From a virus: a stretch of DNA of 31,642 bases. The translations under genes were made by a program, and so were the position numbers. Below the pieces are notes generated by a model. It ran no database searches and was not told the DNA's origin. It saw nothing but the letters and a program-made list of their open reading frames with translations. Each line of letters starts with the position of its first letter. Position 1 is the stretch's first letter. The stretch is taken from IMG/VR virus record IMGVR_UViG_3300024518_003791, positions 1 through 31,642 of that record; one strand, 5' to 3'. Below are positions 5,579-28,840 of this stretch, in pieces.

Positions 5579-6394
5579 CTAGAAACCCCAGTTATATAGG
5601 CGTCCACGACCCCAACTGTGCCGTCGTCCACGTCCACCATAGCCCGGTAGTTGTGTAGGCGAGATCTCTTTGATTCCTTGTAGGGCCTGGGTCTTGGTTA
5701 CGAGCCTGGTCTCTTCCTCGAGGTATCTCTGGAGGTGAGCCTGGGCCTTTTCGGGCGCTCGACTGTAGGTCTGATGGTAAAGGTAGCAGGCATACTCGTA
5801 GACGAGTCGGTAGGCGTTCTTCGTATCGAACCATTCACTCGTGTAGGCATCGGTCATCTCCGTCCCCGTAGCGAGGTCTGTCTCAAAGGGGACGAACCAT
5901 TTCCACACCGAACTCACGTATGCCTGAGTGGGTCTACCAGGCCCACCGACGAAGTCCACTTGAAAGAAGTAATCAGTGACGTCTGACGCCTGCGGGATCG
6001 GCCACACATGCAGCTGGTTCGATACCCAGGCGTAAACCCTAGGCGTTCCCTCGGTACTGAGAGTAGAGGTCTCCGCGAGGTTAGCCCAGAGATCGATCGG
6101 GTCAATTGGCGCCAGCTCCCAGGAGTGCTCGTCGTCCGACTTGTCAAATAGATGAACGGCGTTGATCTTCGAGACATCCGAATTCGCTACGTCAGTCCCG
6201 ATCAGAATGTCATACTGAAACTGGCCTTCCACAACGTCAATCTCGTCCACCCGTCGTTGAAAGTGGAGGTCCAGCTGGTCACAATGGCGAATAGCGTCAA
6301 CGATAGCGTTCTTAATCTTCGCTACTTCTTCGGTGGAATCTCCACGCGATAACGATTGTCTCACCGCTGCAACCAGCGTACCCCAGTTACTCAT
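5579..6394 (-). CDS. Head-tail adaptor (T7 gp11 / P22 gp4-like)
   Basis: A 271-residue protein that probably forms the ring between portal and tail nozzle. The N-terminal helix (IKNAIVDAIRHCDQLDLHFQ) followed by FxYD-type strands, the middle segment RVYAWVSNQLHVWPIP, and the later helical bundle (YEYACYLYHQTYSRAPEKA...LEEETRLVTKTQAL) match the layout of podoviral adaptor proteins. The C-terminus is Gly/Arg/Trp-rich (GYGGRGRRHSWGRGRLY). ATG 6394 is immediately adjacent to the preceding stop. Gene order between capsid and nozzle agrees with this call. Confidence 0.68.
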   Translation of the reverse strand: MSNWGTLVAAVRQSLSRGDSTEEVAKIKNAIVDAIRHCDQLDLHFQRRVDEIDVVEGQFQYDILIGTDVANSDVSKINAVHLFDKSDDEHSWELAPIDPIDLWANLAETSTLSTEGTPRVYAWVSNQLHVWPIPQASDVTDYFFQVDFVGGPGRPTQAYVSSVWKWFVPFETDLATGTEMTDAYTSEWFDTKNAYRLVYEYACYLYHQTYSRAPEKAQAHLQRYLEEETRLVTKTQALQGIKEISPTQLPGYGGRGRRHSWGRGRLYNWGF

Positions 6395-6853
6395 TTATGC
6401 CGGACTCCAAGGATTCCGTCCACCAGCACGAGCCGAGACGGTGATCGCGTGTTTGATCTGGCACAACTGGCCAGTCGCAACGGCCGTCGCTACCCGGAAC
6501 TGAATGTAAGCGGTCTCGCTCGAAGTAACGACAGAAGCACCCGCAAAGGTGTCGGTCTCTCGAACCACTTCAGTAGCCCCGAGATTGGCGGTCGTGTAGG
6601 AGAGGAGGGTTGTGGTTGTACCACCGTCCACCAACTCCAGCACCGCGGTACCCGTGGGCGTAGCGTGAGCGTCCAGCTCTTCACTTACGGTCCAAGCCTT
6701 CACTACAACGACACCCTTAGCAAGGCGCCAGAGTTTGACTACATCGTCTTCGACATAGATCCGGTCGGTAGTAATATCGCTCAGGCTCTCGCCTGCACCT
6801 TGGGAGAACCAAGGACCACGGAAATACGAATCTTCTTTATAGGTAGAAGCCAT
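6395..6853 (-). CDS. Beta-rich head protein, possible decoration or completion protein
   Basis: A 152-residue acidic beta-rich protein with regular hydrophobic strands (VVKLWRLAKGVVVVKAWTV, GTAVLELVDGGTTTTLLSY) and Thr/Val-rich turns. It lies between the major capsid gene and the adaptor, where capsid decoration or head-completion proteins are often encoded. A strong AAAGGAGGATAT site precedes ATG 6853, consistent with high expression. No named family is recognised. Confidence 0.65.
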   Translation of the reverse strand: MASTYKEDSYFRGPWFSQGAGESLSDITTDRIYVEDDVVKLWRLAKGVVVVKAWTVSEELDAHATPTGTAVLELVDGGTTTTLLSYTTANLGATEVVRETDTFAGASVVTSSETAYIQFRVATAVATGQLCQIKHAITVSARAGGRNPWSPA

Positions 6854-6873: not shown

Positions 6874-8031
6874 TTAGCTTAGGTTAGGTTGGGCGTAATC
6901 GAGGGCAGTAAGACCAGACACCACAGGAGCGTAAGAAGAGACCACGATCTTGCCGTAGGATCTCTTAACGCTGGTTCCGTCGTTCCAGTCGAAGCGAGGG
7001 GCGATGGTACCGGAGACGAGCTTCGCGTAAACACGATGTTTATCGCCAGCATCCCAAGCGTTTGCGGTCCACTTGAGGTGATCACCCTTCGGGTTCATGC
7101 GGCCTACTGCTGTTACACAGGCACCGGCCCCGAAGAACACTCCACGTCTGACAGTATCGATAGCGACACTAGTCGAGGAGTTCATCCCGCGAGGAAGGAA
7201 GTTGTTCTCGAACAGAACCACGTTACCCCATTTGCCGAGAGCGTTAGTGAAGAACGGGTGGCCGGTAGCCTGTCCGCCCTGCAAGGCATTCGTCATGGTG
7301 GAGTACCAGTCGGTGTCACTCTGACGCAAGCGCCGGAGTTGGGCCGGATGGAGTTCTAAGCCGTAATACTCAGCATCACCCACTCTAAAGGGAGCGATGG
7401 GAAGAGGTAGACTTCGAGCGATCTCTTTCAAGTCATCGATGTGACCGATGTCAAGGAAGTCCACACTGGTAATCGTCTCGTCCGAGGGAGTACCAAGGAC
7501 AGATGCCGTAGCATCACAGCGATACGCGTGTTGATCGTCTGGAGTGTAGGGAGTGTTGTTGTCGGTGTAGCGCAAGTCAGTCTGACGGGTGTTCCCCGTC
7601 ATGTGATTCGCACGAGATGCACAGCGGCGCTCTTTGATGAGTCCGGACATGTTGGCCCGGAGTTCCTTCAAAGCGTCGAAGCTGACCCGTTGATCAACGA
7701 TATCGGTGTCATCGAAACGACCACCAATTCTCCAAAGATCAAGGATCACATCGTCAGTAGCTGTGTAGATCTCGCCTTCGTTACCCTCGATAATCTCATT
7801 ACCGAGAGCACCAGCGTTTTCACCCATCTTCTGTAGCCAAGTAAGGCGGATTCGGTCTCCGATACCCTTCTTAGCCTCGTCTATGTACACATAAGCATTG
7901 GACTTATGGCTCTTACCACTGAGTCCATATACTGGGTTTGTTGCGGGATCACTTTGATAGTAGTCCTGCCACAAGGATTTCGCCCAGAGTTTTTGAGTCT
8001 CGGGGGCGTTTACATCATAATACCTAGCCAA
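6874..8031 (-). CDS. Major capsid protein, N4 gp56 family
   Basis: A 385-residue shell protein. It shows features of the N4-gp56-type capsid family (PF13252, formerly DUF4043): an N-terminal WAKSLWQDYYQSDP region, GDRIRLTWLQKM...GNEIIEGNEGEI near residues 55-90, a helix with aromatic and Asp residues (LDLWRIGGRFDDTDI), and later GRMNPKGDHLKWTANAWDAGDKHRVYAKLVSG in two blocks around 310-345. Length fits the family. There is no ATG near the N-terminus; TTG 8031 with AGGAGG 8 nt upstream is the start, unusual for such an abundant protein. A dedicated promoter and structured leader precede it. Confidence 0.88.
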   Translation of the reverse strand: MARYYDVNAPETQKLWAKSLWQDYYQSDPATNPVYGLSGKSHKSNAYVYIDEAKKGIGDRIRLTWLQKMGENAGALGNEIIEGNEGEIYTATDDVILDLWRIGGRFDDTDIVDQRVSFDALKELRANMSGLIKERRCASRANHMTGNTRQTDLRYTDNNTPYTPDDQHAYRCDATASVLGTPSDETITSVDFLDIGHIDDLKEIARSLPLPIAPFRVGDAEYYGLELHPAQLRRLRQSDTDWYSTMTNALQGGQATGHPFFTNALGKWGNVVLFENNFLPRGMNSSTSVAIDTVRRGVFFGAGACVTAVGRMNPKGDHLKWTANAWDAGDKHRVYAKLVSGTIAPRFDWNDGTSVKRSYGKIVVSSYAPVVSGLTALDYAQPNLS

Positions 8032-25906: not shown

Positions 25907-25941
25907 CTGATATCACATTGCCCCTTGACACCTGATATCAC
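25907..25941 (+). promoter_or_regulatory. Paired operator-like repeats CTGATATCAC
   Basis: Identical 10-mers at 25907-25916 and 25932-25941, each with the perfect palindrome TGATATCA, centres 25 bp apart. One lies upstream of the -35 box and one in the promoter spacer. A dimeric repressor bound at both would block RNA polymerase. The protein is unknown; the double-HTH protein at 21605 is one candidate. Confidence 0.6.
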
Positions 25942-25952
25942 TGTGCTATCAT
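25925..25952 (+). promoter_or_regulatory. Rightward promoter, leaderless start predicted
   Basis: TTGACA at 25925-25930, 16 bp spacer, TATCAT at 25947-25952 preceded by TGC (extended -10). The expected start site, 25959, is the A of the ATG of a 28-codon ORF. Confidence 0.72.
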
Positions 25953-26312: not shown

Positions 26313-26591
26313 ATGACCAACTCCCCAATAATCAACCACGCCATCACTGCCGCTAATGTCAGCAGCGCAACAGACGGAAGGAAGAACCCAATGCCGATGC
26401 TACCACCAGAACGAAACCACCTAATCTCAAGAGCCAGAACCCTAAAGAGGGCACAGGGCGAAGTGAATCAGCTCCTGTGTAGCGGATGGCACCAAGGCAA
26501 GTCGAGGGACGCTATCGTTTATGTATCCGAGCTACTCAAAGCCGAACGTCGCAAGATACAAGACAGAGTCACTAGGAGCCTAGCATCATGA
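26313..26591 (+). CDS. Small basic protein fused to a duplicated gene start
   Basis: The frame from ATG 26313 gives 92 residues. The first 14 (MTNSPIINHAITAA) equal the start of the membrane peptide at 26588, and the next codons are the 37-bp leader repeat read in frame. The likely genuine protein begins at ATG 26391 (MPMLPPERNHLISRARTLKR, 66 residues, helical and basic) behind GGAAGGAAGAACCC. The upstream part appears to be a truncated copy of a gene start joined by recombination. Function unknown. Confidence 0.55.
   Translation: MTNSPIINHAITAANVSSATDGRKNPMPMLPPERNHLISRARTLKRAQGEVNQLLCSGWHQGKSRDAIVYVSELLKAERRKIQDRVTRSLAS
26352..26388 (+). repeat. 37-bp leader/ribosome-site repeat, copy 2
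   Basis: Exact copy of 26041-26077, 311 bp downstream, placed 2 bp before ATG 26391. Identity ends sharply at both borders, as expected of a recent recombination or duplication. Confidence 0.85.
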
Positions 26592-26695
26592 CCAACAGCC
26601 CCATCATCAACCACGCAATCACCGCCGCTATCGTGGCCATCCTTGCCCACTCGCATCTCATTGCCCTTCTCGCGTTCTTGGTGTACGGGTCATGA
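26588..26695 (+). CDS. 35-residue single-span membrane peptide
   Basis: MTNSPIINHAITAAIVAILA, then a hydrophobic stretch with two His and ALLAFLVYGS. ATG overlaps the preceding stop. It shares its first 14 residues with the gene at 26313, with five synonymous codon differences and none that changes a residue. Function unknown. Confidence 0.58.
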   Translation: MTNSPIINHAITAAIVAILAHSHLIALLAFLVYGS

Positions 26696-26856
26696 GAAGT
26701 ACTCCAGACCATATGCGTTCCATCGATTACGAGCCGTCAGCCGGGATATCCATGTCAAACGAAACCCTTGTGAGGGCATACGAATTCTTTTATAACCTTC
26801 CATACTCCCCAACCACCAGCCAGAACCCAGCCCGGGACCCAGCCACAACCCGCTAA
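26692..26856 (+). CDS. Small unknown protein, 54 residues
   Basis: MRSTPDHMRSIDYEPSAGIS, a short aromatic helix (LVRAYEFFYNLPYS) and a polar tail with NPARDPATTR. ATGA overlap with the membrane peptide. Its TAA stop is immediately followed by the first stem of a hammerhead ribozyme. Function unknown. Confidence 0.55.
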   Translation: MRSTPDHMRSIDYEPSAGISMSNETLVRAYEFFYNLPYSPTTSQNPARDPATTR

Positions 26857-26921
26857 GGACGAAACATAGCCCCTGTATTGCCGGGGCTGTGTCCACTGGT
26901 ATCGCCAGTGCTGACGAGTCC
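26857..26921 (+). ncRNA. Type II hammerhead self-cleaving ribozyme
   Basis: All parts of the core are present in type II order. Stem II: GGAC 26857-26860 with GTCC 26918-26921. GAAA 26861-26864. Stem III: 10 bp, 26864-26873 with 26883-26892 (A15.1-U16.1, one G-U pair), loop of 9 nt. Cleavage site GUC, cut predicted after C26893. Stem I: CACTGG 26894-26899 with CCAGTG 26905-26910, loop TATCG. CUGACGA (CUGANGA consensus) 26911-26917. It lies in the 101-bp gap between genes at 26692 and 26958, and cutting would give the downstream mRNA a 5'-hydroxyl end with a stem I hairpin. Confidence 0.9.
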
Positions 26922-26957
26922 GGAAGGCTTGAACGATAGAGAAGGAAGGAAGAACCA

Positions 26958-27233
26958 ATGTCTGAAGAAATCCCTTTAGATCAAAGGATCAAAAACGAAA
27001 TAGCTCACATGAAGGAAGTGCGGGACCAGTTGAAGCGACTCTCTCGGGAGTATAACGACTTGTTTCAAGCTGACAAAGAGGGGTCATCGACTAACTGGAG
27101 TAACAATCCCAAGGGAGATGCACTCTTCGGCCTTTATTGCGAGTACGATGATCTTCAAGAAAGAATAGACGCGCTCATTCGCTTTGAGTTAGAGCCCGCA
27201 CTCAAGACCGCTCAATCCGGGTCCACCTCATGA
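26958..27233 (+). CDS. Small coiled-coil protein, 91 residues
   Basis: Two helices (LDQRIKNEIAHMKEVRDQLK to about residue 38; LYCEYDDLQERIDALIRFEL) with a polar, Asn/Gly-rich loop between. ATG 26958 has the shared GGAAGGAAGAACC site. It is the first gene downstream of the hammerhead cut. Function unknown. Confidence 0.65.
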   Translation: MSEEIPLDQRIKNEIAHMKEVRDQLKRLSREYNDLFQADKEGSSTNWSNNPKGDALFGLYCEYDDLQERIDALIRFELEPALKTAQSGSTS

Positions 27234-27406
27234 ACTGCCTAGAATGCACCGGCCCTCTCACCACCAGCACCGAACGCTGGAATGAGATCTGCCGGGAGTG
27301 TACCGACCAAGAGCCAGCCGCATCCATAGATGATCACCACGAGCACTATCAACCTACCACAAGCCAAGAGCCTGAGCCCTTTGCTCTGGAGGAGATGAGA
27401 TTATGA
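27230..27406 (+). CDS. Small zinc-ribbon protein, 58 residues
   Basis: CLEC near the N-terminus and CREC 15 residues later form a CxxC...CxxC zinc ribbon (C3, C6, C21, C24); the rest is acidic, His-rich and probably disordered. ATGA overlap on both sides. It may bind nucleic acid or a protein partner. Confidence 0.6.
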   Translation: MNCLECTGPLTTSTERWNEICRECTDQEPAASIDDHHEHYQPTTSQEPEPFALEEMRL

Positions 27407-27633
27407 CACAGACTCAGACCGTAACCGAGCGACGGCGGATCGCCAAAAAGAGCCTACTCCTTGCCGGGATGGAGCATTCCAGGTACAACGATTCATATCA
27501 TATTCACTTGGTCTCAAATCAATCGCACCTCAGGGGAGGGTTGACCCTTCGGGAGGTCGAGATCTTCGCCGAGGCCATCTATTTCTATCACTGGGAACTC
27601 AACAGCGAGAACAGAAAGGCAGAGGGATCATGA
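27403..27633 (+). CDS. Small unknown protein, 76 residues
   Basis: Basic start (TVTERRRIAKKSLLLAG), His/Tyr-rich strands (YNDSYHIHLVSNQSHLRGGL) and a helix (LREVEIFAEAIYFYHWEL). GGAGGAG ahead of ATG 27403. Unknown function. Confidence 0.62.
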   Translation: MTQTQTVTERRRIAKKSLLLAGMEHSRYNDSYHIHLVSNQSHLRGGLTLREVEIFAEAIYFYHWELNSENRKAEGS

Positions 27634-27893
27634 ACCATCTTCATTGCCTCTGGGCTTCTCTTACCGGGAAGCGCCGCCCATATATCACACGACTCTGGAA
27701 ACCGCGAAGCTTAGGCCACATTACCGAATCTATCCTCTGGATCTCGATTGAGCAAAACGGGAGCCGGGACCCAATCAGGGCTTGGAGATTCAATCTCGGC
27801 CCTACCTACAACGGAACCGTGGCCGGTATCTTCATACTCACGCCGTGGTTTTCCATCCTGGGTCACATCAGAACTCAAGCGCCCACGAGATAG
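27630..27893 (+). CDS. Small unknown protein, 87 residues
   Basis: Trp/Arg-rich with beta-like stretches (ESILWISIEQNG, AWRFNLGPTYNGTVAG) and a hydrophobic C-terminal stretch (IFILTPWFSILGHI) too short and late for a clear membrane anchor. ATGA overlap with the preceding gene. Unknown. Confidence 0.58.
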   Translation: MNHLHCLWASLTGKRRPYITRLWKPRSLGHITESILWISIEQNGSRDPIRAWRFNLGPTYNGTVAGIFILTPWFSILGHIRTQAPTR

Positions 27894-28190: not shown

Positions 28191-28840
28191 CAAGCCGAAT
28201 CAAAGCATGGCACTTCACCGCCCTTGATAAGCACCTCGGCTACGAGGATAGACGCCTAGTTGAGCCGGGAAAAACCCTCTCCGTGGAGGGACCCCCAGAG
28301 ATGTGTACGCACGGCCTCCACGCCTCCAAGCGTGCTCTCGACGCCCTCAAGTACGCCCCCGGCCCTTACCTGTGGCGAGTAGATATCTGGGGTAACGTGA
28401 TCGAGGACGACGACAAGCTTGTGGGTACTCACCGCGAAGCCCTCGCGGGATTCGATGCGACCAAACTCCTTCGGCGATTCTCCCGGATGTGTGCACTTGA
28501 CGTCGTTCACCTCTGGGATGCTCCGGATGTTGTGTTGCAATACCTGAAGACCGGAAATCCTGAACTTAAGGCCGCAGCACGGGCCGCAGCACAGGCCGCA
28601 GCATGGGCCGCAGCACAGGACGCAGCACGGGACGCAGCACGGAACGCAGCATGGGCCGCAGCACAGGCCGCAGCATGGAACGCAGCATGGGACGCAGCAC
28701 GGGCCGCAGCATGGAACGCAGCACAGGCCGCAGCATGGAACGCAGCACGGGCCGCAGCATGGGCCGCAGCATGGAGCCGTCAGTCTCGACGCTTGAACGC
28801 CATGATCGGCTATGCCCTCAAGAAGGAGACAACCCCATGA
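28187..28840 (+). CDS. Phage protein with Ala-rich tetrapeptide repeats (DUF7666-like)
   Basis: A 217-residue protein. The N-terminal domain (IKAWHFTALDKHLGYEDRRL, then EPGKTLSVEGPPEMCTHGLHAS and DALKYAPGPYLWRVDIWG) and middle (ALDVVHLWDAPDVVLQYLKTGN) match a widespread phage and prophage family I associate with DUF7666; function unknown. Residues about 129-196 are 17 copies of a four-residue unit [ADN]AA[RQW], which would form a long amphipathic helix with Trp/Arg/Gln on one face. ATG 28187 overlaps the preceding stop. Confidence 0.75.
   Translation: MTSRIKAWHFTALDKHLGYEDRRLVEPGKTLSVEGPPEMCTHGLHASKRALDALKYAPGPYLWRVDIWGNVIEDDDKLVGTHREALAGFDATKLLRRFSRMCALDVVHLWDAPDVVLQYLKTGNPELKAAARAAAQAAAWAAAQDAARDAARNAAWAAAQAAAWNAAWDAARAAAWNAAQAAAWNAARAAAWAAAWSRQSRRLNAMIGYALKKETTP
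28571..28774 (+). repeat. 12-bp minisatellite, 17 units
   Basis: Tandem units of the type G(C/A)CGCAGCA(C/T)GG or CAG, each encoding [ADN]AA[RWQ]. Seventeen units, 204 bp, in frame. Copy number should vary between relatives by slippage without breaking the frame. Confidence 0.85.

Follow-up and report, generated by a model that had tools for sequence, protein, structure and literature searches.

The stretch of viral DNA analysed here (31,642 nucleotides, referred to hereafter as the window) is a single virus record encoding a P22-type portal, a phage capsid protein, a DnaB-type helicase and an exonuclease; its source is an uncultured tailed phage. In a plus-strand region of small genes, simple gene tiling defines two blocks of ATGA-joined ORFs (26588-26856 and 26958-27893), and 65 of the 101 bases between them are occupied by the element under study (26857-26921, + strand), with other gaps further off. 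The upstream block closes with a 54-aa gene (26692-26856, +) that has no family match and overlaps a preceding 35-aa ORF by ATGA; its TAA stop codon (26854-26856) directly abuts the element. The downstream block opens with a 91-aa gene (26958-27233, +, ATG at 26958, no family over cut-off), the first of four ATGA-overlapping ORFs, with further genes close behind; a Shine-Dalgarno-like purine stretch (the GAAGGAAGGAAG region, 26941-26952, +) precedes its start. A location between two small phage genes, beginning at the base after a stop codon, had been proposed in a sequence-only reading of this DNA, and both points agree with the coordinates. In the collections tried, we found no protein relatives of the downstream gene, of the portal protein or of a third protein from the structural region.

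Two further features of the neighborhood are recorded here. A promoter-like site (TTGACA-16-TATCAT with a TG extension, 25925-25952, +, matching at 11 of 12 positions) lies ~900 bases upstream of the element and possibly marks the start of the operon. At 28566-28840, Ala-rich repeats (AAAQAAAW-like) end a 217-224 aa protein with DUF7666, and the DNA of these repeats shows 68-79% identity to segments from Pseudomonas, Burkholderia, Clavibacter and Mycobacterium phages.

The intergenic element is a type II hammerhead

The element (26857-26921, +) contains all core nucleotides and the three helices of a hammerhead ribozyme, with stems II, III and I of 4, 10 and 6 bp, respectively, meeting at the core. 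The 5′ strand of stem II (GGAC, 26857-26860) is followed by core residues GAA (G12, A13 and A14; 26861-26863) and by the stem III hairpin (26864-26892, about -17.7 kcal/mol), in which ACAUAGCCCC (26864-26873) pairs with GGGGCUGUGU (26883-26892), a count of 10 bp that includes A15.1-U16.1. C17 of the GUC triplet sits at 26893, and cleavage is predicted between 26893 and 26894. The stem I hairpin (26894-26910, loop UAUCG, about -8.4 kcal/mol) is formed by CACUGG (26894-26899) and CCAGUG (26905-26910), and leads into the CUGACGA core (C3 to A9, position 7 being C; 26911-26917) and the 3′ strand of stem II (GUCC, 26918-26921), which pairs back with 26857-26860. The invariant hammerhead core is thereby matched in full, CUGANGA appearing as CUGACGA, alongside GAAA and a UH cleavage site in the form GUC. 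Loops close stems I and III and stem II is left open, the arrangement that defines type II. Every core and stem element listed in the sequence-only reading is therefore in place. An unconstrained fold recovers all three stems (-34.2 kcal/mol, z -2.8), and the 5′ half that contains stem III (26857-26893) has a folding energy of -18.4 kcal/mol.

To assess the match statistically, we used a covariance model (CM) built from 64 other phage sequences with the window left out. This leave-one-out model scores the ribozyme at 57.5 bits (E 1.7e-12), with no other credible hit in the window; the second-best match (5890-5957, 12.3 bits) has no CUGA, lies on the strand opposite to the local gene and was set aside as chance. 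A relaxed type II descriptor, which asks for the core bases and for minimum stem lengths of 2, 4 and 4 bp, has a single match in the window, at the ribozyme, and matches in 3 of 1000 dinucleotide shuffles. Together these two results exclude a chance occurrence.

Rfam gives a different picture. At the gathering threshold no Rfam match was obtained anywhere in the window; with a relaxed E-value, RF02276 (Hammerhead_II) aligns over its full model (1-66) at 20.7 bits against a threshold of 37 (a snoRNA match that surfaced in the same relaxed search was dismissed as chance). The type II covariance search that had been suggested as a check on the hammerhead assignment, a score under the threshold counting as refutation, is thus divided, with the published model falling short and the leave-one-out model of the subtype recovering the element. 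The RF02276 consensus has a short, 2-bp stem II, in contrast to the 4-bp GGAC/GUCC helix of the window, and the same cut-off turns away nearly all close relatives: in six phage arrays (L252-L257) the subtype CM finds 56 copies, of which RF02276 at its gathering score reports 2, and at 15 loci the three hammerheads that Rfam reports all lie elsewhere than the GGAC-type positions from our pattern scan (described below). For this reason the low score is a limit of the Rfam model and not a refutation, and a revised model may be needed for the GGAC/GUCC subtype. The sub-threshold score is also what could be said for an inactive relic, or for a fortuitous fold, for instance a plain terminator hairpin. 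We regard this explanation as very unlikely: that threshold rejects close array relatives in the same way, the invariant core bases are all intact and the leave-one-out E-value is very low, no U-run follows stem III, and a terminator scan does not report the site.

A GGAC/GUCC subtype is common in viral contigs

Relatives were sought in IMG/VR with the pattern GGACGAAAC-N-GTC-N-CTGANGAGTCC, which places no requirement on stem I or stem III. At least 120 loci were returned, with 153 motifs among the matches listed; among these listed motifs, stem I reaches at least 4 bp in 151, and both stems I and III do so in 140. The same pattern has 11 loci in 84,980 bacterial and archaeal species genomes, a comparison that is indicative only, the two collections differing in size. 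The type II pattern also has a match on the chromosome of the haloarchaeon Halorarius litoreus (L243, 4260-4307, - strand).

Covariation was examined in 68 phage sequences, preselected for intact stems and low redundancy. In this set, 98.1% of cells are paired against 64.0% after shuffling, and compensatory changes occur at 12 pairs of stems I and III; stem II is invariant because GGAC/GUCC is fixed by the search pattern. Median energies in the relatives are -14.1 kcal/mol for the hairpin at the upstream end (stem III) and -9.1 kcal/mol for that at the downstream end (stem I). Position 7 is C, as in the window, in 45 of 142 relatives, U being commoner. Sequence and structure, covariation among relatives and the genomic setting all uphold the type II assignment made by the sequence-only reading.

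Type II hammerheads are usually stabilized by Watson-Crick loop contacts (PMC6155905; PMC3088659), commonly a pseudoknot between loop I and the 3′ tail in RF02276 and in the type II hammerheads of Perreault et al (PMC3088659). The window does contain a 5-nt complement of loop I (UAUCG), CGAUA at 26934-26938 (+), 12 nt after stem II, and a pseudoknot could form there; the pairing is probably fortuitous. Among relatives of the subtype, loop I pairs with the 3′ tail no more often than in shuffles (8 of 125, against a shuffled mean of 15.7), and this contact is not supported for the GGAC/GUCC subtype. Two single bases are instead strongly conserved: the first base of loop I is U in 134 of 142 relatives, and an A immediately precedes GGAC in 136 of 140 unique motifs. 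A contact between these two is a likelier tertiary interaction than the pseudoknot and, if it resembles the loop contacts seen in other hammerheads, would be non-Watson-Crick. In the window, the A concerned (26856, +) is the last base of the upstream TAA stop codon, and is the proposed partner of the loop I U.

Ribozymes often follow stop codons, singly or in arrays

Many relatives start a few bases from a stop codon and lie 10-35 bases ahead of a start preceded by a Shine-Dalgarno sequence. In 46% of relatives the ribozyme starts no more than 5 nt from the end of a stop codon (3.5% of random positions), and a Shine-Dalgarno-preceded start lies within 80 nt downstream in 81% (29% of random positions); random positions are a weak control here, since any element confined to the gaps of a compact genome falls near gene ends. 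The position of the window ribozyme is typical of its relatives.

Copy number per whole record ranges from 1 to 13. In one set of 32 records, all chosen for having at least one copy, 17 have a single copy, and the window likewise has one, so that no gene is bracketed here. At the other extreme, the inter-ribozyme segments of six arrays contain one ORF of 25 aa or more, and no second, in 36 of 50 cases, as scored by a simple ORF finder. The longest type II array on one strand has 13 copies (L252, G001:C1:21500-31500), followed by the records of L067 (G048) with 12, L253 (G017:C1:13500-20500) with 11 and L061 (G045) with 10, likewise on one strand each. Spacing in the L252 and L253 arrays is mostly about 200-800 nt, often with one ribozyme per gene, 0-3 nt past the stop codon. 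The record of L013 has three ribozymes of equal CM score on one strand (G025:C1:5929-5983, 6452-6506 and 7065-7119), about 500-600 nt apart and two of them letter-identical, which suggests recent duplication of a unit comprising ribozyme and gene.

The many copies of some phage records raise the idea that the window ribozyme is one of a pair that releases and circularizes an RNA, in the manner of viroid-like or retrozyme RNAs, a task that hammerheads do perform elsewhere. This is the least probable of the explanations that we weighed, and we consider it highly improbable: the window record has a single copy, and tandem arrays gave no circular or spliced products in the work of Perreault et al (PMC3088659).

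Predicted cleavage would split an operon transcript

Taken together, the motif and its setting make it very probable that this type II hammerhead, predicted to be self-cleaving, marks the point at which a polycistronic transcript of an uncultured tailed phage is cut. Splitting of the operon mRNA is the best-supported function, as inferred from motif and context. Once the polymerase has passed 26921, the RNA would fold and self-cleave at the junction of C26893 and C26894, either while it is being transcribed or shortly afterwards. With stem II as the open helix, the stem III hairpin would close the 5′ product and the stem I hairpin would open the 3′ product; the upstream message would thus terminate in a 10-bp hairpin bearing a 2′,3′-cyclic phosphate, and the downstream message would start with a 6-bp hairpin and a 5′-OH. 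The sequence-only reading had drawn attention to a protected 5′ end on the downstream RNA only, and the type II layout also gives the upstream RNA its 3′-terminal hairpin. Such hairpin ends could be expected to slow 3′ exonucleases and 5′-monophosphate-dependent decay of the RNase E type, and the two parts of the operon would then be translated and decay independently.

An active ribozyme could alternatively serve a mainly regulatory or destabilizing role, in which one half is exposed to decay or severed from coupled translation, and the cut sets the ratio of the two gene blocks instead of yielding two messages of equal stability. The ribozyme does separate two blocks of ATGA-coupled genes, the Shine-Dalgarno region of the downstream half is free of strong structure, and a gene-control function has been suggested for some phage hammerheads by Perreault et al (PMC3088659). 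The element has no ligand domain, however, its sequence favors loss of neither half, and hairpins stand at both ends; we accordingly hold this role to be possible, though on the unlikely side.

Extending the transcript-splitting reading from the window to the subtype is more tentative, and we put it forward with somewhat less than even confidence. Many phages may punctuate operons of small genes with a type II subtype missed by present RNA databases, in which the ribozyme starts at the stop codon, the last A of that codon serves as the loop I contact and both RNAs are capped by hairpins at every cut. RNA would then suffice to convert one transcript into a series of messages for single genes, with the window as the minimal, one-ribozyme case.

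Whether phages use type II exclusively because it caps both ends was judged against type I hammerheads of IMG/VR that have a closed GUCC-loop-GGAC stem II. A single scan for this closed form (L121-L240) gave 96 of type I, 22 of type III and 13 unclassified. The type I examples share with the window their stem II sequence, the core and often an intercistronic position; in type I, however, stem I is open and the downstream RNA would lack a starting hairpin, unlike the type II element of the window. In type I and type II alike, a stem III hairpin would close the upstream RNA. Since type I is common between phage genes and caps the upstream RNA only, capping of both ends is no general requirement, and the notion that phages use type II exclusively for this purpose is weakened.

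Relation to known phage ribozymes

The first natural type II hammerheads were reported by Perreault et al (2011; PMC3088659), who described prophage clusters on either side of one gene or a short run of genes and proposed that they process transcripts into operon- or gene-length mRNAs. They showed in vitro cleavage for three tandem arrangements of hammerheads from bacterial and prophage loci and, in one case (A. tumefaciens), cleavage in E. coli (PMC3088659). The window ribozyme has the core, permutation, GUC cleavage site and phage intergenic setting of RF02276 and of these type II examples, and is another example of an already known kind. Like it, the hammerheads of A. tumefaciens, Azorhizobium and C. 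scindens lie between small genes of phage operons; those are clustered and are thought to yield operon- or gene-length mRNAs, whereas the window ribozyme is single (PMC3088659).

As a single element, the ribozyme is ordinary for its class; more useful is the observation that its subtype is common in viral contigs below the Rfam cut-off. In the freely accessible literature searched, we found no account of this invisibility at the Rfam cut-off, of near-abutment on stop codons or of arrays of 10-13 copies, and we make no claim of novelty for them. A 2017 review (PMC6155905) treats the role of prokaryotic hammerheads as an open question, which can be tested directly in phages where as many as 13 ribozymes are arranged gene by gene. 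Self-cleaving RNA, as predicted here, is also found in phage genomes in the form of the HDV-like theta ribozymes of gut phages (PMC10879173), which have a different fold and a reported role in tRNA-based recoding.
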